A stretch of 36,427 nucleotides of DNA. Origin: a virus. Location: positions 1 to 36,427 of the IMG/VR virus record IMGVR_UViG_3300020438_000117; one strand, given 5' to 3'. The position numbers and the translations under genes were made by a program. Positions 22,786 to 33,699 of the stretch are shown here, one piece after another; the first letter of the stretch is position 1, and every line of letters starts with the position of its first letter. The notes below the pieces were generated by a model that was not told where the DNA came from, made no database searches, and saw only the letters and a list, made by a program, of their open reading frames with translations.

Positions 22786-24282
22786 TTATACAAATATCCC
22801 CAACATACCAGAAACTCTCATAACGTCCTCATTACTAGGATCAACAGCACTTACATAAGGTAATGATTCACCATTTAGAGGTGGATTTGACATTGTTCCT
22901 TCACTTATACCTTTACCTTCAAGCACTGGTGGCATTACTTTAACACTACCATCCTTCATTCTATTTACTGTACCACCACCTTGCAACTGACTAACAACTG
23001 TTCCTTTATCCAGATTTACTTTATTTGCACCTGTAAGTTTATCAACTATACTACTACCACCCATATATCCACCAAGACCCAAAATACCAAGACCGATAGA
23101 ACCTATTAGAGTTGATCCTAGTTCTGGAAATAATACCATACCAACTAAAGTACTTACTAATGCAGAACCAGCAAGACCACCACCAATACCAGCACCAGTC
23201 TGAAAATTACTCTGTCCCATTTTTTTTCTATTAAAAGCATCCAATCCCATTCCAAGAGTACCAAGTAATCTACCACTACCTCTAAAACCCTTAATCCTAC
23301 TAAGACCCTTCATACCTCCAGTTCCTGTTGGTGTTTTTGGAATAGATGCTGTAGTAGTCTTAGCAGCTTTTGTCATAAAAGAAGGAAGTTTACCTGCTTG
23401 ACCTTTACCAAATCCCTGATTAAAAAATCCACTGACTCCTATATTACCTCTTCTGAATAATCTTAATTTATCACCAAAATTTGCCTTTCCTGCTATAAAT
23501 CTAGAATTAGAATCATTTAATTTACTTAAAGCTGTTCTACCTTTCGTAGTGTCCCACCACGGTTTTCCAACTTTTCCTAAACCTGTAGTACTCTGTTCAG
23601 TTGTACCCGAACCTCCAGTAGTCTTCTTACCACCAAAAAGACGACCAAGACCTATTGCCGATGCCAGTCCACGAATAGATTTGAATAAAAGATATAAATC
23701 TGCTACAGTCTTGAGAATTATACCTCCTACTACTAAACCAGCAATTAACTTCCAGTTCTTAGTTATAGTATCAAAAAACTTCCCAACTTTATCTGTATTC
23801 TTACTTAACCAATCTAATCCTTTATTAGCTAAAAATCCTGCACCTATCCAACCAAAGAATCCTAATAACCTACCAAAGATACCTTTAATAGGTGAAACAA
23901 CTTTATCAAATGTCTTACCTATTACAGATCCTAATTTTTTACCCTCTACATTACGCTCAGCTTCTGCTTGCTTTGCTTTCTTAGAAGATACTCTTATCTT
24001 GTTTATTTCTTCACTTTCTTTTGTAATTCTATTGGCAAAGTCTAATGCTAACTGATTCTGAATTTCTACAAGAATTCTATTAGTTTCAATTAGACTCTCT
24101 CCTAATGAATTATTAGGACTTTGATCTATAGCAGTATCGGGAGTAGACTTACGAAATATAGACGACAAAGACCGCATAGGTCGAAAAGACCCAATACCAC
24201 TAGAGAGTTTACCAATAGGACTCTTTATATTGGTTACTGTTAATTTTGGTCTTTTAGATGTCTGTAAGTTAATAAGTGCCAC
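22786..24282 (-). CDS. Tape-measure-like tail protein, longer paralogue (498 aa)
   Basis: The start is GTG at 24282, which overlaps the end of the gp51 reading frame by 14 bases, so the two are coupled. Residues 60-115 form a charged coiled coil. Residues 138-154 (RLLGFFGWIGAGFLANK) and 170-200 (a NWKLIAGLVVGGIILK helix) are hydrophobic. Residues about 365-415 are a second Gly-rich hydrophobic stretch (STLVGMVLFPELGSTLIG). In most tailed phages the tape-measure gene directly follows the frameshifted tail chaperone pair, and this is the gene in that slot. It shares VTNIKS and RLLxFFG with the next gene. At about 1.5 angstrom per residue, 498 residues would be short for a cyanomyovirus tail, so both paralogues together may be needed; that is speculation. 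Confidence 0.55.
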   Translation of the reverse strand: MALINLQTSKRPKLTVTNIKSPIGKLSSGIGSFRPMRSLSSIFRKSTPDTAIDQSPNNSLGESLIETNRILVEIQNQLALDFANRITKESEEINKIRVSSKKAKQAEAERNVEGKKLGSVIGKTFDKVVSPIKGIFGRLLGFFGWIGAGFLANKGLDWLSKNTDKVGKFFDTITKNWKLIAGLVVGGIILKTVADLYLLFKSIRGLASAIGLGRLFGGKKTTGGSGTTEQSTTGLGKVGKPWWDTTKGRTALSKLNDSNSRFIAGKANFGDKLRLFRRGNIGVSGFFNQGFGKGQAGKLPSFMTKAAKTTTASIPKTPTGTGGMKGLSRIKGFRGSGRLLGTLGMGLDAFNRKKMGQSNFQTGAGIGGGLAGSALVSTLVGMVLFPELGSTLIGSIGLGILGLGGYMGGSSIVDKLTGANKVNLDKGTVVSQLQGGGTVNRMKDGSVKVMPPVLEGKGISEGTMSNPPLNGESLPYVSAVDPSNEDVMRVSGMLGIFV

Positions 24283-24460
24283 TCTTTTGCTGTTGCTTTA
24301 AGTTTTCTTCTTCAATATATTGCTGGAGAAGTGAAACATATATTTCTCTTTCCCACGGAATCATATTTTCAAGTTCTGTTAAGCTATATTTATGGTGTTG
24401 CATCAGAGCAAAATTTGTCCGATAGTAATTCTCTAGACTCTCATGAGCTAGAGCTAACTG
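24269..24460 (-). CDS. 51: gp51-like C-terminal extension of gp26, reached by -1 frameshift
   Basis: In the frame -1 to gp26, an open stretch of 63 codons runs from the frameshift point to a TAA at 24269. It has no ATG or plausible ribosome site at its start; the first internal ATG is at codon 20. The product reads QLALAHESLENYYRTNFALM..., then LTELENMIPWEREIYVSLLQ..., the pattern I associate with gp51, the T4 baseplate-hub assembly catalyst, and with GT-type tail chaperones. Frameshifting at 24460-24466 would give a 302-residue gp26-51 fusion (239 + 63). The TAA overlaps the GTG start of the tape-measure-like gene. The reading frame and motif are directly visible; the fusion mechanism is inferred from the slip site. 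The alternative is independent initiation at the internal ATG, giving about 44 residues. Confidence 0.75.
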   Translation of the reverse strand, partial: QLALAHESLENYYRTNFALMQHHKYSLTELENMIPWEREIYVSLLQQYIEEENLKQQQKSGTY

Positions 24461-24466
24461 AAAAAA
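24431..24466 (-). promoter_or_regulatory. Programmed -1 ribosomal frameshift site with downstream hairpin
   Basis: On the minus strand the heptamer T TTT TTC (24466-24460) is in the gp26 zero frame and fits X XXY YYZ. gp26 terminates two codons later. Six bases after the heptamer, CTCTAG (24453-24448) pairs with CTAGAG (24436-24431) around an 11-base loop. The slip places ribosomes in the open gp51 frame. This is the arrangement known for tail-chaperone genes G/GT of lambda-type phages. Confidence 0.8.
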
Positions 24467-25176
24467 GATGCTAGACCCTCTATCGTCACGTCACTTTTTA
24501 CTTTAGTATTGGGATTAGTAACGTTAAGAGTATGAGCTAACTTAGGCATAGTATTAAAAAATTCTTCAACTTGTTTGAATTGTTTAGAGTTCATTTGTTC
24601 AACAAAATCTTTCAATTCCTTTTTACTACAATCAGTCGCATCCCATGCCTCCTCATTACTATATACTTGCTTAATACAAGACATAATAACATTAAGAGAT
24701 TGTTCGACCTCACTCTTCTCTCCACCCACTTCAAAATTAGTTTCAATAAATTGATTCAAAGATGGATAATTCATTTGTAATGATAAATCACTATCCAATT
24801 GAATAATATCAGAATGAGTATCAGATTTCTGAACTTTAATCGAATCAATATCTATTTCAACCTGAACCTGTGTTTCATTATCATCAGGACAAGTAATGTT
24901 AACTTCCACTGTTTCTCCAACTGATTTAGCACGAACATTTAGAAACAGATATTCAATATCAAATGTTGCCAATTTTTCAATTTTTATACCTCTACTTAAA
25001 ATACAATCACTAAGAACATCTTTAATTGCATTTGTAATTTGTTTAGAATCTTCTGATTCTAAAGCCATGATTAAGATTTTTTCTTCTTTAACTAAGAAAG
25101 GTCTATATTTAATCTTTTTTCCACTAGAAGGTAGAACCAATTCATATGTCGGTGTATTAATTTTTGGTAAAGGCAT
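24454..25176 (-). CDS. 26: gp26-like baseplate hub assembly chaperone
   Basis: A 240-residue soluble protein (MPLPKINTPTYELVLPSSGK...) with the T4 gp26 pattern: an N-terminal LPSSGKKIKYRPFLVKEEK strand region, a helix MALESEDSKQI, a beta segment VEVNITCPDDNE at about 88-105, and C-terminal helices FVEQMNSKQFKQVEEFF. T4 gp26 is 208 residues and is needed for hub assembly without being abundant in the particle. The gene ends at a -1 frameshift site that extends it into gp51. An upstream TATAAATA (25199-25206) and a TTAGGA ribosome site precede the ATG at 25176. As a frameshift chaperone pair, gp26 and gp26-51 would act on the tape measure encoded next. Confidence 0.8.
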   Translation of the reverse strand: MPLPKINTPTYELVLPSSGKKIKYRPFLVKEEKILIMALESEDSKQITNAIKDVLSDCILSRGIKIEKLATFDIEYLFLNVRAKSVGETVEVNITCPDDNETQVQVEIDIDSIKVQKSDTHSDIIQLDSDLSLQMNYPSLNQFIETNFEVGGEKSEVEQSLNVIMSCIKQVYSNEEAWDATDCSKKELKDFVEQMNSKQFKQVEEFFNTMPKLAHTLNVTNPNTKVKSDVTIEGLASFFS

Positions 25177-25216: not shown

Positions 25217-25855
25217 TTAACCAAGAATATATCGATCATAAGCAAACTGAACTGTTATCTTAACCAGATCAGCTGCACCATATTGAACAGGAATAGATAT
25301 CATTCCTTTTGGAAAGGCATTAATAAATTCATACATTATAGCATCATCACTATTTAAATCTTTATTAAATTTTACGATTGATAATGACCCACACTTATAT
25401 CCAATTTTATTATCTTGTCTCATAGGATAATTAAATCTTCTATAATAACTTAAATTATCCTTCTTATTAATACCCAAATAATTATCATCTCCAGAAATAT
25501 AATCCATCCACCCCTCAAAGAATTTTAATGTATTATATTTTGTATCAACATAAAAACTAAAATCACTATCAACATATAATCTGTTATGTGCAAACTGTTG
25601 ATTTATACCATGAAAATTATCTTTAACTTCTGCTGTAGCAAATGAACTTGTTGGAAGTGTAGCCTCTGAGCACATTATTCCAATTCCAGAACCAGTAGCA
25701 TAACTTCTGGGTATATCATAATACTGACGCAAATATCTTTCTAAATCTGCAGTTATACCAGAGATATTTACTTGATATTGATTATTCAAAGAAACCTTAC
25801 TAATGTCCATCTTAGTAAGAGCACCCATCTTATATTTTGAAATAATCCCTGCCAC
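25217..25855 (-). CDS. Tail-tube-fold structural protein, probable gp54-type tube initiator
   Basis: A 212-residue protein with a GTG start at 25855 preceded by AAGG. The middle has LPTSSFATAEV..., an FSFYVDTKY strand and an FFEGWMDYISG helix. The end, EFINAFPKGMISIPVQYGAADLVKITVQFAYDRYIL, has the strand-helix-strand ending of phage tail-tube proteins (T4 gp19, gp48, gp54 share this fold). In T4, gp48 and gp54 join the baseplate to the tube. gp48 is encoded just across the divergent promoter region, so this protein is likely gp54 or a hub-tube adaptor. T4 gp54 is 320 residues, much longer, so the exact equivalence is uncertain; another tube-like baseplate component is possible. Confidence 0.6.
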   Translation of the reverse strand: MAGIISKYKMGALTKMDISKVSLNNQYQVNISGITADLERYLRQYYDIPRSYATGSGIGIMCSEATLPTSSFATAEVKDNFHGINQQFAHNRLYVDSDFSFYVDTKYNTLKFFEGWMDYISGDDNYLGINKKDNLSYYRRFNYPMRQDNKIGYKCGSLSIVKFNKDLNSDDAIMYEFINAFPKGMISIPVQYGAADLVKITVQFAYDRYILG

Positions 25856-25891: not shown

Positions 25892-26332
25892 ATGTCTTAT
25901 AAAGGAAGATATCAACCGAATAACCCCTTAAAGTATAAAGGTAACTTTCGGAACATCATTTATCGTTCTCTATGGGAACTCAAGTTCATGAAATATTGTG
26001 ATAGTAATCAGAATATTTTAGAATGGGGTAGTGAAGAATTTTGTCTTCCTTATAGATCTCCATTAGATAATAGGGTTCATAGATACTTCCCAGACTTTTA
26101 CATTAAGGTAAAAGAAAAGACTGGAAAGATTAAAAAGTATGTAATTGAAATAAAACCTCAAAAACAGTGTATCGAACCTAAAAAACAAAAAAAGAAAACT
26201 AAAAGTTATATTTACGAAGTCCGTCAATATGTACAGAATCAAGCAAAATGGAAAGCTGCAAAGGATTATTGTCTTGATAGAGGATTAGAATTTAAAGTAT
26301 TAACAGAGAACGAATTAGGAATAACCCGATGA
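25892..26332 (+). CDS. 4: gp4-like head completion protein with PD-(D/E)XK nuclease fold
   Basis: A 146-residue protein close in length and pattern to T4 gp4 (about 150 residues), which completes DNA-filled heads before tail joining. Visible hallmarks are KYKGNFRNIIYRSLWELKF near the N-terminus, LEWGSEEFCLPYRS, then HRYFPDFYI (Asp68) and YVIEIKPQ (Glu86, Lys88), the PD...ExK signature of restriction-type nucleases. The C-terminal helix (YVQNQAKWKAAKDYC) is also family-typical. It is the first gene of the only plus-strand cluster and its stop overlaps the next start (ATGA). No strong ribosome site precedes the ATG, and the leader from the late motif would be about 20 bases. Confidence 0.85.
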   Translation: MSYKGRYQPNNPLKYKGNFRNIIYRSLWELKFMKYCDSNQNILEWGSEEFCLPYRSPLDNRVHRYFPDFYIKVKEKTGKIKKYVIEIKPQKQCIEPKKQKKKTKSYIYEVRQYVQNQAKWKAAKDYCLDRGLEFKVLTENELGITR

Positions 26333-28614: not shown

Positions 28615-29505
28615 TTATGATTCTGCTAGTTTAGCAAAATACGATAGTGGATCTTCTTCTTCAGAGGAAGTAGGAGTTGGTGCAGCAACAGCAGCACTAA
28701 CTAGTTCTTCTGCAGAACCACGATCATTATCCTCATCAACAGTTTCTACATCTTGACGAACTGTAGTCTTATTGCCAAGAACATAACCAAGACGCTTCTT
28801 CAAATCTTCATAAGACTTGAACTGATCAGCACCGACAAACTCTTGAAGAGAACTTTCTTTCTTCCATAGTCCTTCTAGTGCGTCGTCATCATCCAATACT
28901 GGAGTGACAGCAGTAAACTCAGAAGAGTCGTAGTTACGATAACCAGCAACGTTCTTTGCCTTCAACTTGAAGTTAGCACCTTGCCAGAAATCAAATGGAT
29001 CAATTGCTTCTTCATCCTCAAACTCAGGTTGCATTGCTGCAGTTAGTTTGTCAAAGATTTTCTTACCATACTTGTATAAGAATACTTTACCTTCGTTCTC
29101 AGGATTTGTTGGATCCTTCACAACATAGATGTTACTGATATATGTAAGTTTACGCTTCTGCTTACGAGCAGCATCTTTACCAGCATCTGTGCCATTGTTC
29201 CAGAGTGTAGTATTAAACTCAGAAACAGGATCCTTTTGACCAAGAGTAGTCAAAGAATTTTCGATGTACCAACCACCAGGCCCTTGAAAGGCATGAGAGT
29301 ATAGTTTTACAAATGGTAGATCCTCACCATCGGGAGCAGGTAGGAAACGAATGACGGCATATCCATTACCTGATTTATCACATTCTAATTTCCATAAACG
29401 GTCATCACCTGATGAACCATTGTTATTCATTTTTTCGACTTCCTTCACAAGTTTTTGTGTAAGAGAGCCCAGTTTTGATTGCTTTTTAAGATTAGCAAAC
29501 GACAT
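28615..29505 (-). CDS. 32: gp32 single-stranded DNA-binding protein
   Basis: A 296-residue protein (T4 gp32: 301). The N-terminal basic region (NLKKQSKLGSLTQKLVKEVEKM) matches the self-interaction domain. The core has DDRLWKLECDKSGNGYAVIRFLP, SHAFQGPGGWYIENS, VFLYKYGKKIFDKL and FDFWQGANFKLKAK, the gp32 OB fold. The C-terminus is acidic (EEEDPLSYFAKLAES), the tail that recruits gp59 and other partners in T4. Of the T4 zinc ligands only the His (His71) remains; the three Cys positions are not cysteine (only Cys42 occurs in the core), so zinc binding as in T4 is unlikely. A GAGG ribosome site and a dedicated sigma70 promoter precede it; it is the last gene of the replication operon. Confidence 0.95.
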   Translation of the reverse strand: MSFANLKKQSKLGSLTQKLVKEVEKMNNNGSSGDDRLWKLECDKSGNGYAVIRFLPAPDGEDLPFVKLYSHAFQGPGGWYIENSLTTLGQKDPVSEFNTTLWNNGTDAGKDAARKQKRKLTYISNIYVVKDPTNPENEGKVFLYKYGKKIFDKLTAAMQPEFEDEEAIDPFDFWQGANFKLKAKNVAGYRNYDSSEFTAVTPVLDDDDALEGLWKKESSLQEFVGADQFKSYEDLKKRLGYVLGNKTTVRQDVETVDEDNDRGSAEELVSAAVAAPTPTSSEEEDPLSYFAKLAES

Positions 29506-29546
29506 TTAGTTACCTCGGATTTAATTGGATTTGTTGGATTGGTTTT

Positions 29547-29575
29547 ATTATAACAAAGAATTGATTTTTAGTCAA
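29547..29575 (-). promoter_or_regulatory. Sigma70-type promoter for gp32
   Basis: On the minus strand TTGACT (29575-29570) and TATAAT (29552-29547) are separated by exactly 17 bases. The -10 is a perfect consensus. The -35 overlaps the stop of the upstream FFDSEIV gene. gp32 can therefore be transcribed by host polymerase independently of the operon. Confidence 0.85.
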
Positions 29576-29897
29576 CAGCATTTTTCATTTTATCAATAGT
29601 TTTTTTCATAGTATCAAATAAAATATTAACATCAGTTCCATGGGGAAAACCCAGTGAAGAAACTGACTGTATCAAATTCTCTTTCATTTTAACTGCTTCA
29701 GGATCATCAGAAAGTGACAATCTTGTATACATGATACGCTGTTTATCTAACAGTTCTGATAGATCATCAATATGTTCCAATTGCTTGTCACGAGATAATG
29801 ATCCAAAAGAAAAAACACTTCCGTATATTTCCTCTTGTAATTTATTAATTTCCGTTAGTTCTTCACGAACTATTTCAGAATCAAAAAATTCACTCAT
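29568..29897 (-). CDS. FFDSEIV protein resembling a cyanobacterial DUF1825-like family (109 aa)
   Basis: A 109-residue helical protein: SEFFDSEIVREELTEINKLQ, then LDKQRIMYTRLSLSDDPEAV, and FDTMKKTIDKMKN near the end. As I remember it, the cyanobacterial DUF1825 family has the same order (FFDSEIVQQE, RYRIFMKR-ELSED, MF-QM) and length. It lies between gp59 and gp32, overlapping the gp59 start side by 8 bases, so it is co-translated with the replication genes. No DNA-binding motif is visible. The gp33 coactivator is an alternative label for a gene in this position, but the gp33-like motif is in a different gene of the operon (31103-31363). Function unknown; host-derived origin is an inference. 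Confidence 0.6.
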   Translation of the reverse strand: MSEFFDSEIVREELTEINKLQEEIYGSVFSFGSLSRDKQLEHIDDLSELLDKQRIMYTRLSLSDDPEAVKMKENLIQSVSSLGFPHGTDVNILFDTMKKTIDKMKNAVD

Positions 29898-30486
29898 CGA
29901 TTAACTCCCTCAAAATTTTTTTATATTGGAACACATTAATATTTAGGAAAGGAATATATTTTTTTATCTTTAAACTGACGGATTCCCACACTGGATCATT
30001 TAATTTCTTATCAAAATTTTTTACGAAAGAAAAGACTTTTTCCAGTATCGTAACTGTCTCTAGCGAAATCTCTCCACCCAGATATTTTTTTAATAATAGA
30101 GGATGGCCTTTCGAGCAATCGAATACTGTTTGTAATTCGTTCTCCAATAGAAGTTTCTCTGACTCCTCCTTGAAAATATAAGTCATACTCTGTCTCCGTC
30201 TCATCCACTCTGCGTAGGTTCTTTCTCCAGAATTGATAATTTCTCCGATCCATAGGTTTTGTGGGTTGTCTGTTATTGTAAAATTTGCTAATAAAAAATC
30301 TACTATTTCTTGATTAGAGTACTTTCTTGAAGTTTTCTCAAACCAATACTTATCCTTTCGTTTATTAAAGGATGTCATGGTTGCTCTCGACTTACCACCA
30401 TATTTTATAAAGTCATACTTAGGATTAGTAAAATGACTTTTCATAGAAAGATAAGTTCTATAAGTCTCAAATGGTGTCACTTTCAT
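29890..30486 (-). CDS. 59: gp59-like loader of replicative helicase
   Basis: A 198-residue basic protein (T4 gp59: 217). It matches at YRTYLSMKSHFTNPKYDFIKY, FNKRKDKYWFEKTSRKYSNQEI, then DFLLANF, LWIGEI and the C-terminal DPVWESVSLKIKKYIPFL. In T4, gp59 binds forked DNA and gp32 and loads the gp41 helicase. The gene overlaps the stop of the 2OG oxygenase by four bases at its start and the FFDSEIV gene at its end. Its neighbour gp32 is its binding partner in T4. Confidence 0.85.
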   Translation of the reverse strand: MKVTPFETYRTYLSMKSHFTNPKYDFIKYGGKSRATMTSFNKRKDKYWFEKTSRKYSNQEIVDFLLANFTITDNPQNLWIGEIINSGERTYAEWMRRRQSMTYIFKEESEKLLLENELQTVFDCSKGHPLLLKKYLGGEISLETVTILEKVFSFVKNFDKKLNDPVWESVSLKIKKYIPFLNINVFQYKKILRELIDE

Positions 30487-31103
30487 TTACTCTTAGATCC
30501 AAAAAAACTGGAGATACAATATCTTCCATATCCATCATAATAATCAGAATCATTTATACTTACTTGTCTTACACCATGTGTAACCCAACCTGGTAATATA
30601 ATTATAGAATTATTATCACAGGAATATTCATAATTATAATCAGGAAAATATACTTCACCACCACTAAACTTTTTAGGTTCTTTATAAAAATAAGAAAATG
30701 CTAAAAACTGAAATGTTTTATCACAATGTGGTTCATAATATTCACCATCATGATAATATCTTACTTTTGTAATATCCCAATTAGATTCGGTAGCAATACA
30801 ACAACAATCATGAATTTTAGAAAATAAATGCAATGCTTCACACGTAAAAAGTTTTCTATTTACAGTTAAAATATTAGATAGATTTCTATGTTTTTTAGTA
30901 TAAACACCATCTAATTCTAATGCATGAGAATTTGTTTTATCTACAACTCCACCAAAGTCTTTAGCTTCTAACAGTTTTCCTGGTTTAGTGTAAAATTTAA
31001 GTTCTTCCCATACCAATTCAAGTTCCTTTTCATTATAAAAATCTTCAACGATTAAATGTGGAAAAGGTTCTTCTAAGGCATATCCTGTAAGTACCTCACC
31101 CAT
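30483..31103 (-). CDS. 2-oxoglutarate/Fe(II)-dependent oxygenase (prolyl-hydroxylase type)
   Basis: A 206-residue protein with the iron facial triad His126-x-Asp128 (in EPHCDK) and His176 (in WVTHGV), and the 2OG-binding Arg194 in GYGRYCISSFFG. The strands FLAFSYFYKEPKKFSGGE and NSIIILPGWVTHG are characteristic of the P4H-like double-stranded beta-helix. Such oxygenases are frequent in marine T4-like phages; the substrate is unknown. It begins with a one-base overlap (TAATG) after the gp33-like gene and has no ribosome site of its own, so it should be translated by reinitiation. Two consecutive cysteines plus one (CCC at 100-102) are unusual but not part of the active site. Confidence 0.88.
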   Translation of the reverse strand: MGEVLTGYALEEPFPHLIVEDFYNEKELELVWEELKFYTKPGKLLEAKDFGGVVDKTNSHALELDGVYTKKHRNLSNILTVNRKLFTCEALHLFSKIHDCCCIATESNWDITKVRYYHDGEYYEPHCDKTFQFLAFSYFYKEPKKFSGGEVYFPDYNYEYSCDNNSIIILPGWVTHGVRQVSINDSDYYDGYGRYCISSFFGSKSK

Positions 31104-31363
31104 TATAATGGCAATTTAGCTCTAGAAGTTTTTTTCATAAAGTTAAGTTCTTGAGCATCATATTTTAATTTCTCTTTAAGAGGTTTAGAAACAAGTTTAG
31201 TCACTGATTCTATTTCTAAATTATTAATCTCACAATAATAACATATTGCATCAATATAATTCATTTCTTCTTTAGAAACAATTGATTCAATTTCTATAGC
31301 AAATTTTTGAGGAGTTAAAAATTTACTCTCAATTGCCTTTTCAAGTTCTTTATTCTTTTCCAT
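31103..31363 (-). CDS. 33: gp33-like late-transcription coactivator (86 aa)
   Basis: The frame is open from 31468, but I start it at the ATG at 31363 because a GGAG ribosome site precedes that codon and the overlap with the exonuclease gene falls from 119 to 14 bases. The 86-residue product has EIESIVSKEEMNYIDAICYYCEINNLEIESVTKLVSKPLKEKL, which parallels T4 gp33 (EEFGMSYLEATTAFLEEN... then IPSGIIEKI). T4 gp33 bridges gp45 clamp and RNA polymerase at late promoters with gp55. The late-promoter motifs in this window would be its targets. T4 gp33 is 112 residues with a hydrophobic C-terminus; here the end is AKLPL. The identification is by motif memory only. Confidence 0.6.
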   Translation of the reverse strand: MEKNKELEKAIESKFLTPQKFAIEIESIVSKEEMNYIDAICYYCEINNLEIESVTKLVSKPLKEKLKYDAQELNFMKKTSRAKLPL

Positions 31364-32033
31364 AGAGCTCCAATTTATCTCCAACAAACTTTCTAATATA
31401 TTTGTCGAGAAGTTTGATGTACTTTGATTTGTCTGATTCTTCATAGACGACACATTCTCCATTTTCACAAGCCATGATAATTACAAGTTTTTTTATTGAG
31501 ATGTTTTTCATCTCATATAGCATACATCCGTATGCCATTGCCTGAACAAAATAATGTTCAATCCACTCTCGTGGTTTAGGTTTTTTAGATGTCTTAAAAT
31601 CTATTATTGCCAGATCACCATCATATTCTGCAATACAATCAACGGTTCCAGCAATTCCTAGTTGTTTACTATATAGCGGCCCTTCCAGAGCATAGATATT
31701 ATCTATTTTATTAAGTGTACCCTTTGCTATCTTAAATAAGAAATCAGATATGGGTGGAACTTTAGGAAGGACTTCATCATTCTTTAAGTAATGTTCAGTC
31801 AGAGTATGCATATCAGTTCCACGGGTTGTAGCCGCTTTCGTGATCTTATCTGCTGTCTCATTACCTACCTTCTTTCTCCAATTAATAAAGATTTCTTTAT
31901 TAAAATGACTAGTAACAGAAGTAATAGATACTAACTTAAGTAATTCTTCCTCTTCTGGAATAGAATAATAACGAACACTATCTATAGTCTCTCTTTTGAG
32001 AGGTTCTAGATTCAAATCAACATGATTAAACAT
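31350..32033 (-). CDS. PD-(D/E)XK exonuclease, RecB/Cas4-like
   Basis: A 227-residue nuclease with the RecB-like motif set: RGTDMH (His76), GTVDCIAEYDGD (Asp132), IDFKTSKK (Asp145, Lys147) and YFVQAMAYG (Gln164). It lacks the Cas4 C-terminal cysteine cluster. Such genes occur in cyanomyoviruses next to phoH and probably act in recombination or degradation of host DNA; the exact substrate is unknown. Its start follows the phoH stop with a one-base overlap. Its end overlaps the gp33-like gene. Confidence 0.85.
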   Translation of the reverse strand: MFNHVDLNLEPLKRETIDSVRYYSIPEEEELLKLVSITSVTSHFNKEIFINWRKKVGNETADKITKAATTRGTDMHTLTEHYLKNDEVLPKVPPISDFLFKIAKGTLNKIDNIYALEGPLYSKQLGIAGTVDCIAEYDGDLAIIDFKTSKKPKPREWIEHYFVQAMAYGCMLYEMKNISIKKLVIIMACENGECVVYEESDKSKYIKLLDKYIRKFVGDKLELYGKE

Positions 32034-32791
32034 TAAAGTCCTATTTCAATTTTAGCAGTAAGGTATTCTTTGACTAATCCAGAACGAACGATATCATCAA
32101 TACCAAATTCTATTATATCAAAAGATGGCATTTTACGCAAGATGTTCATAAAGTCTACAATACCATTACGATCATTAGTTTTAACTAAATCTGATTGGCT
32201 GGAATCACCACAGAAAATAATTCTAGTATTTTCACCAACTCTGGTAATAATACTGTCTAATTCATGGAAGTTTAAGTTTTGAAACTCATCTACAATCACA
32301 ATAGAATTATCTAATGTAGTTCCACGAAGGAATGATGTACTCCAAAACTTAATTGTATCCTGTGCTTTAAGATTACCATATAGCATCTCAAAATCAGCAT
32401 CAGAGGGCATTTGAAACATATACTTAACCATATTCTTATAAGGAATTTGGTAAATATCTGCCTTATCCTCATGATCACCAGGTAAGAAACCAATCTCTCT
32501 TGTGGCTACCAATGAACGAACCAAATAAATCTGTTCATAAGGTGTAGTATCACTCAGAACATCAGACATTGCATTATAAAGACTGATAAAGGTTTTACCA
32601 GTACCTGCCACACCATAAGCAACTAAATGTTTTCCACCTTTATAGGATTTAAACAATCGTTTTTGATTATCGTTAAGTGGTTCTATATCTACCAAATACC
32701 CAGAACCAAGAGGTTTTTTCCTCTTCATCTGCTTTGCTGTTAGACCAACTCCAATGGGTTGATCTGCAGATGCTCTCTTTCTTCTTGCCAT
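32033..32791 (-). CDS. phoH: PhoH-like P-loop ATPase
   Basis: A 252-residue protein with Walker A GVAGTGKT (60-67) and Walker B IVIVDEF (Asp168, Glu169), and the PhoH features LNDNQKRLF, YLVRSLVATREIGFLPGD and NTRIIFCGDSSQSDL. PhoH is widespread in marine phages and often linked to phosphate stress or RNA metabolism in the literature, but its role in infection is not settled; it is named only by homology. It overlaps the 83-residue gene by one base and the exonuclease by one base. No Pho-box could be identified by eye upstream. Confidence 0.95.
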   Translation of the reverse strand: MARRKRASADQPIGVGLTAKQMKRKKPLGSGYLVDIEPLNDNQKRLFKSYKGGKHLVAYGVAGTGKTFISLYNAMSDVLSDTTPYEQIYLVRSLVATREIGFLPGDHEDKADIYQIPYKNMVKYMFQMPSDADFEMLYGNLKAQDTIKFWSTSFLRGTTLDNSIVIVDEFQNLNFHELDSIITRVGENTRIIFCGDSSQSDLVKTNDRNGIVDFMNILRKMPSFDIIEFGIDDIVRSGLVKEYLTAKIEIGL

Positions 32792-33042
32792 TATGTAATC
32801 TTTAAATTTTTGGCACCAGGTGCTGTTGATGCTTTTGCTAAAACTTCATTCCAACCTGGTTTGGATTTAATTAATTTATTACGCCAATCTCCAACTTCTG
32901 TAGCCATTGGACATGTTGAGGGATCACTCCAATCTCTAGTCCAATCGGGATTGTCATCACTCCACTTATTCCATTCATGAACACTCATAACAATTTCTTT
33001 CTGTTCACCAGTTTCCTTATTTACAATAGGATATGTTGCCAT
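32791..33042 (-). CDS. Conserved small cyanophage protein upstream of phoH (83 aa)
   Basis: An 83-residue protein: MATYPIVNKETGEQKEIVMS at the N-terminus, then WNKWSDDNPDWTRDWSDPS, and a basic tail (GAKNLKIT). The N-terminal strand pattern with TGEQKE resembles FmdB-like regulatory peptides, but the CxxC pairs of that family are absent (one Cys only). I recall it as a conserved hypothetical in cyanomyoviruses. A CTAAATA motif that overlaps the thyX stop lies 22 bases before its ATG, so it may head a late transcript with phoH. Function unknown. Confidence 0.65.
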   Translation of the reverse strand: MATYPIVNKETGEQKEIVMSVHEWNKWSDDNPDWTRDWSDPSTCPMATEVGDWRNKLIKSKPGWNEVLAKASTAPGAKNLKIT

Positions 33043-33063
33043 AATTATAAAAGTAATGTAATT

Positions 33064-33070
33064 TATTTAG
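33064..33070 (-). promoter_or_regulatory. Late-promoter-like CTAAATA overlapping the thyX stop
   Basis: CTAAATA on the minus strand includes the TAA of thyX and lies 22 bases before the next ATG (33042). It may allow late expression of phoH and the genes after it. Confidence 0.45.
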
Positions 33071-33699
33071 ACCCACTCAAGGGCTTCTGAGACTGCAGGG
33101 AACTGTTCGGTAAATACCTTTCTACATGCATCTGCAATGACCATATGTTCCTTCTGAGTGCCGTGTGCAGATCTTAGATTTATATAATGTATCCAAGAAC
33201 GACAAGAACCAGTCATATAGATTCTGGTAGGAGTACAGAGTGGTAATACCATTCTAGCACACTCTTTAGCAACACCTTGCTTTAACATAGACTCATACAA
33301 TGCTTTAGAAGAACTAAACAATGTAATCATCTGACGTTCAAATTTATCAGCTATCTCAGGATCTAAATCATCAGTAGAGTTTTGACGATTCTTTGCATCC
33401 TGTCTACGAAGTTCTGGTAATTCTATATCACCTAGAGATGTAGTCTGTGCATACCTTTGGGAAAACTCCTGAAATGTAAAACTCCTATGTCTTAAGATTT
33501 GTGCCGCAATAGCACGTGTAGTCTCTATTTCCAAAGTCATTGAAGATTGCTCAAAAACACTCCAATGATTATGCTTGATGCAATACTTCAATAGTCCTGC
33601 ATATTTTTCATTATCTTGATTTGACGGATTAGACACTCTGGCAATATATGCCATCATCTGCTCTGCGTCAGGAGTTATGCTTATAAGTTTTACAGTCAT
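33067..33699 (-). CDS. thyX: Flavin-dependent thymidylate synthase ThyX
   Basis: A 210-residue protein with the ThyX signature RHRx7SxR (Arg70-His71-Arg72, Ser80, Arg82: RHRSFTFQEFSQR) and the C-terminal TGSCRSWIHYINLRSAHGTQ. ThyX makes dTMP from dUMP using FAD, NAD(P)H and methylene-THF, supplying thymidine for phage DNA. The length is typical (200-250). Its ATG overlaps the stop of the 51-residue gene (ATGA). It is grouped with replication genes, fitting a nucleotide-supply role. Confidence 0.95.
   Translation of the reverse strand: MTVKLISITPDAEQMMAYIARVSNPSNQDNEKYAGLLKYCIKHNHWSVFEQSSMTLEIETTRAIAAQILRHRSFTFQEFSQRYAQTTSLGDIELPELRRQDAKNRQNSTDDLDPEIADKFERQMITLFSSSKALYESMLKQGVAKECARMVLPLCTPTRIYMTGSCRSWIHYINLRSAHGTQKEHMVIADACRKVFTEQFPAVSEALEWV

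Follow-up and report, generated by a model that had tools for sequence, protein, structure and literature searches.

In E. coli dnaX, a Shine-Dalgarno-like (SD-like) element, a slippery heptamer, a short spacer and a hairpin follow each other in this order, and the same order is found at the end of gene 26 in the T4-like phage DNA described here, the two cassettes differing in the gene concerned, in the slippery run (A in dnaX, T here) and in the product, as it is the longer protein to which the shift would lead here. For T4-like phages, the tail-assembly chaperone (TAC) genes were reportedly identified by Vladimirov, Gautam and Davidson in 2022 (Virology 566:9-15), who are said to have named genes 26 and 51 and to have found frameshifting conserved in several T4-like groups. 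The gp26/gp51 frameshift was thus already proposed in 2022, and the biology is sound, not new; our additions to this prior work may be an SD-like element upstream, hairpins rebuilt by clade and a start codon placed in a stem. Two later papers cite Vladimirov et al. 2022, one for some T4-like phages that do not frameshift but have two genes, a short one and a long one (PMC10885494), the other for slippery sequences of the poly-T kind in TAC-N of T4-like phages (PMC12846349); as far as can be told from these papers, the TAC-N/TAC-NC proposal is the same as the one made here, with the frameshift in some groups and a short plus a long gene in others. PMC12846349 also describes a TAC locus of Vandenendeviridae/Andersonviridae with a conserved -1 frameshift, a poly-T motif and a separately annotated C-terminal part, which resembles our locus in its frameshift layout and differs in its motif, GTTTTT. 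Phage lambda likewise obtains two chaperones, the shorter gpG and the longer gpGT (summarised along with their roles in PMC5009743), by a -1 frameshift close to where the shorter one ends, the genes on either side being a tail-tube and a tape-measure-like one; T_TTT_TTC stands here in place of the lambda heptamer, and comparison of sequence and fold to lambda G/GT gave no significant link. For T4 itself, both gp26 and gp51 are listed among the hub assembly chaperones, and gp51 as absent from the particle (PMC3004832).

The window analysed here is the whole of a 36.4-kb uncultivated virus record (36,427 nucleotides) containing T4-like tail genes, and the features of interest are collected in Table 1. 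Judging from sequence comparison, we assign a probability of about 0.93 to the reading that a single gene, comprising gp26 and gp51, gives rise to both a short and a long tail-assembly chaperone through a dnaX-style programmed -1 frameshift.

Table 1. Features of the gp26/gp51 locus and its neighbours in the window
Feature	Coordinates	Strand	Remark
Tail-tube-family gene, directly upstream	25217..25855	-	PF23849 Phage_TTP_2 E=8.6e-18; phrog_45 tail tube E=8.2e-27
gp26, short tail-assembly chaperone (TAC-N)	24454..25176	-	240 aa
GAGGG, SD-like, candidate stimulator	24476..24480	-	9 nt upstream of heptamer
Slippery heptamer T_TTT_TTC, phase X_XXY_YYZ of gp26 frame	24460..24466	-	
gp26 stop TAG, ends short form	24454..24456	-	
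Candidate stimulatory hairpin, 6-nt spacer	24431..24453	-	-11.3 kcal/mol
gp51 region, -1 frame, TAC-C, C-terminal domain of long form	24269..24460	-	63 codons
498-aa gene, directly downstream	22786..24282	-	14-nt overlap with gp51

The product of gp26 matches the full PF12322 domain (E=1e-72, aligned over 2-218 of 219) as well as phrog_150 (E=1.7e-78), with matches in 693 phage records. Its last codons read GCA TCT TTT TTC AGT TAG, and the -1 frame is open on the minus strand from 24490 to 24269, the reading after a slip being QLALAHESLENYYRTNFALMQHHKYSLTELENMIPWEREIYVSLLQQYIEEENLKQQQKSGTY. This product matches phrog_634, 'baseplate hub assembly catalyst' (E=9.8e-32), and the region also matches the C-terminus of phrog_150. 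The predicted gp26-gp51 fusion would comprise 239 + 63 = 302 aa, with the junction peptide SDVTIEGLASFFQLALAHESLENYYR in the window, ENEVVLEGLQSFFR in P-SSM2 and SDVVLEGLASFFR in syn9. The first-pass annotation of this DNA, made from the letters alone, had thus correctly described an in-phase heptamer, a 6-base spacer and a CTCTAG/CTAGAG hairpin at the end of gp26, followed by 63 gp51-like codons without a start signal at their beginning; indeed, the first part of the -1 frame in the window holds neither ATG nor GTG nor TTG, and its first ATG lies at 24403, 63 nt past the start of the heptamer. It had also placed the pair directly upstream of a tape-measure-like gene. The adjacency holds, whereas the label is given by position and hydrophobic segments only (around residues 178-201 and 366-401), the 498-aa downstream protein having no Pfam match and no significant PHROG match; the gene is a variable one. 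A 68-aa stretch is common to this gene and the next one (22782-21754), at 40% identity, as though one tape-measure-like gene and its neighbour had come to share a duplicated region.

From two scans of viral contigs, named phages and further scans, 214 distinct loci with a recognisable gp26 and gp51 were assembled, two of which contain T4-type in-frame genes. In all 212 non-fused loci with a detectable gp51, it lies in the -1 frame. The alignment of relatives that the first-pass annotation had named as a check shows the in-phase T_TTT_TTN together with the -1 frame in 211 of these 212 distinct loci (last base C in 191, T in 18, A in one and G in one), against in-frame genes of the T4 type; the sole exception (L275) had been fetched as a T4-type gp51 locus. 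Four further loci with gp26, in which gp51 was undetected (L058, L071, L169, L253), stand outside this count. The distance from the start of the heptamer to the gp26 stop is mostly 10 nt, while it amounts to 7, 13 or 31 nt in other relatives, and the heptamer is therefore not tied to the stop codon. In Pelagibacter phage Mosig (L173) and its relatives, gp26 runs several codons beyond the slippery codons and the heptamer is retained, its distance to the stop being 31 nt in 16 loci. The -1 arrangement of gp51 is common to cyano-, pelagi-, methylo-, rhizo-, caulo-, stenotropho-, aeromonas- and vibriophages; the gp26 sequences of Aeromonas 65 and Rhizobium P10VF, used as queries against viral contigs, returned few loci.

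Codon choice at the site was analysed in 68 representatives sharing less than 70% protein identity. The codon preceding the TTT of the heptamer ends in T in 68/68, and the first Phe is TTT in 68/68 (75% elsewhere in gp26), while the second is TTC in 53/66 as compared to 25% elsewhere (p=9e-21). The chance of finding T followed by TTT in all 68 by independent synonymous choice is in the order of 10^-25, an approximate exponent, as the representatives are taken as independent. Constraint on the synonymous codons of the slippery site thus goes far beyond codon usage. A similar preference is seen at the upstream element, where Glu codons are GAG in 24/32 cases (29% elsewhere, p=1.3e-7) and Gly codons GGG in 13/67 (8% elsewhere, p=0.001) in the same representatives. 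The 4-mers resembling an SD are most frequent at 15-12 nt upstream of the heptamer, with a value of 0.62 versus 0.35 in synonymous shuffles (sd 0.054), none of 300 shuffles reaching as high. An SD-like GAGG is present in relatives about 9-10 nt upstream of the heptamer, and the stimulatory SD of E. coli dnaX sits at about this position, which is too far upstream for use by an ATG beyond the gp26 stop.

In the window, the hairpin stem CTCTAG (24453-24448)/CTAGAG (24436-24431) is lengthened by three inner base pairs, CTC/GAG, beyond those first noted, and its folding z is about -4.2. Across the 68 representatives, compared with synonymous shuffles, the folding z right after the heptamer averages -1.69 +/- 0.20, versus -0.17 to -0.51 in control windows of gp26 and about -0.3 to -0.9 deeper in gp51, so that the signal is strongest exactly after the heptamer. 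The stem itself differs between clades: besides the window type, whose 6-bp stem occurs in register in only 14 distinct sequences, there are a GCCTC(T)/AGAGGC type and an 11-bp AGTATGGCTCA/TGAGTCATACT type. When all downstream sequences were put into one gap-free alignment, RNAalifold detected no structure common to them; as the hairpin registers differ between clades, counts were made per clade. Searches of Rfam and NCBIfam returned nothing relevant. It should also be noted that picking the register per sequence inflates pairing, so the weight lies on the synonymous-shuffle energies and on a class of 78 distinct sequences with an ATG at +15, selected without regard to pairing. In this class the 11-bp register is paired to 85%, as compared to 25-48% in registers slid by up to 5; two-sided changes in the stem (24 cells) are similarly frequent in two of the slid registers, and the weight therefore rests on the paired fraction. 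This is the largest ATG class, and its ATG forms part of the 5' arm of the conserved hairpin, a placement that supplies a structural reason for the conservation of the ATG.

Whether gp51 could instead be a separate protein, started just past the gp26 stop through translational coupling (for example at TAATG or TAAGTATG), depends largely on such start codons. A -1-frame ATG within 24 nt of the heptamer is found in 98/211 loci, several annotations begin gp51 right after the gp26 stop, and two Vibrio phages without the heptamer, discussed below, have a TAATG. However, an SD match at a usable distance accompanies only one of the 98 ATGs, the ATG of the largest class belongs to a hairpin arm, and 112 distinct loci, the window among them, lack a -1-frame ATG for at least 48 nt; the fixed synonymous choices in T_TTT_TTC would be left unexplained as well. 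We consider a separately started gp51 very unlikely, and the conserved gp51 start with a ribosome site that the first-pass annotation had set against its own proposal does not appear. Starting a truncated gp51 at the internal ATG at 24403, with the -1 frame upstream of it untranslated, would agree with the first ATG lying at +63 in 67/211 loci and with the annotations of syn9, Melnitz and ACG-2014a, which use internal starts tens of nucleotides downstream. The 18 codons preceding this ATG, on the other hand, are conserved in the -1 frame, with L, H, L, E, N and F near fixed, and in the 112 ATG-less sequences the stretch is free of stops, with substitutions distributed over the codon positions as 140/78/312. 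This pattern, by which the -1 reading frame is under protein-level selection, leaves an internal start hardly credible.

If a fusion is made, slippage of RNA polymerase on the T run, with no involvement of the ribosome, might produce it too, and a run of at least six T is indeed present in 211/212 loci. Six T are short for transcriptional slippage, though, the run is closed by C in 191/211 in spite of Phe being mostly TTT elsewhere, and both an SD-like element and a hairpin belong to ribosomal slippage, which makes the polymerase a most improbable agent. An AT-rich genome with many TTT codons might also be expected to yield a heptamer and an open -1 frame by chance, or an assembly error might imitate them; the recurrence in 211 distinct loci on separate contigs and genomes and the synonymous retention calculated above, again with representatives taken as independent, refute this. 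What the locus presents is an in-phase heptamer, a selected -1 reading frame and, by their presence, candidate stimulators, as expected of a programmed frameshift, and the first-pass proposal of a -1 frameshift comparable to lambda G/GT gains support from the conservation of slippery site, frame relation, SD-like element and hairpin, and from the lack of conserved start codons.

Public records have treated this region unevenly, as had been suspected from the window: apart from the scattered starts mentioned, gp51 is omitted from the annotation of S-CAM1 and AsFcp_2, and Aeromonas 65 has just a short hypothetical ORF there. For many marine myoviruses, in which the gp51 start has been guessed or gp51 left out, the annotation can thus be corrected and the tail-assembly chaperone identified.

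T4 has the same two protein forms, a gp26-like one and a gp26-like one with a C-terminal helical domain, but encodes them in two separate, divergent genes. In its gp51 (249 aa), residues 1-201 align with PF12322 (E=3.9e-52) and the end is made up of a gp51 domain (phrog_634, E=1.2e-23), with phrog_150 covering nearly the whole length, gp51-like tail included; similarity to gp26 by BLAST is weak (E=2e-6). In a predicted model of a T4-type gp51, the elements come in a gp26-like order, with helices added at the C-terminus, and a Foldseek search with this model found nothing. The coding layout of the window provides for a short form and a long form made of the short one plus a C-terminal part, with T4 gp51 as the in-frame long form. 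The first-pass claim that gp51 is a frameshift domain therefore holds for marine T4-like phages but not for T4 itself, where gp51 is a separate gene with its own gp26-like N-terminal part. In phage RB43 (L282, 2501-3794) a long (gp51-type) and a short (gp26-type) paralogue stand in tandem on one strand, which suggests that duplication came before the divergent gene order seen in T4. One branch (95/93) of an unrooted tree splits the gp26 proteins of the frameshift type from the T4-type short and long forms, so that a single change between frameshifting and duplication would be enough, the unrooted tree giving no direction. The group thus offers a comparative case, in which one protein pair is obtained by frameshifting in most phages and from two paralogous genes in T4, and this contrast helps to explain the long-unclear role of T4 gp51.

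Relatives lacking the heptamer with both frames intact, which the first-pass annotation had named as evidence against a frameshift, do occur: in Vibrio phages K393 (L169) and D510 (L279) the heptamer is lost (CTTTTCAAG directly before TAA, with CTTTTC at the site), while the gp51 frame stays open from an overlapping TAATG start. Since K393 is placed within the frameshift side of the tree, this looks like a secondary loss of the slippery site in a lineage that left frameshifting, and a separate gp51 can be workable in at least this one lineage. Altogether it seems probable that T4-like phages have, in gp26/gp51, a complete frameshift cassette of the dnaX type, in which the hairpin was rebuilt several times, by clade, at the same position and the apparent gp51 starts are only parts of the stem, that frameshifting and duplication have been exchanged once with respect to the T4 group, and that one Vibrio group has lost the slippery site.

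In the proposed mechanism, most ribosomes would stop at the TAG of gp26 and release the short chaperone, whereas a minority would slip back by one base on T_TTT_TTC, by tandem slippage of two tRNA-Phe, held by the SD-like GAGGG upstream and the hairpin 6 nt downstream, and would complete the fusion. We infer the occurrence and the efficiency of this shift, as well as the separate role of each signal, from the signals themselves and their conservation. If the analogy to lambda gpG/gpGT holds, the short form would cover the tape-measure protein in many copies, while the long form, present in a few copies, would use its C-terminal helical domain to bring in tail-tube subunits, and neither would remain in the virion. 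This proposed chaperone role of gp26/gp51 is well argued. When the gp26 model was compared to the PDB by Foldseek, the HK97 tail chaperone 2OB9 ranked 2 and 6 with probabilities of 0.75 and 0.57, at non-significant E-values of 0.78 and 1.5; PDB sequence searches with gp26 and T4-type gp51 profiles returned nothing relevant.

Elsewhere in the window, a 739-aa protein adjoining the tail fibre genes (5845-3626) contains a subtilase (Peptidase_S8) domain (E=1.2e-13), and the region beyond the tail genes (28615-33699) encodes gp32, gp59, a 2OG-Fe(II) oxygenase-like gene, PhoH and ThyX. A T4 gp4-like head-closure gene lies on the plus strand at 25892-26329 (phrog_218, E=1.4e-59), and it also matches the TnsA-like endonuclease N-terminal domain, PF08722 (E=1.9e-23).
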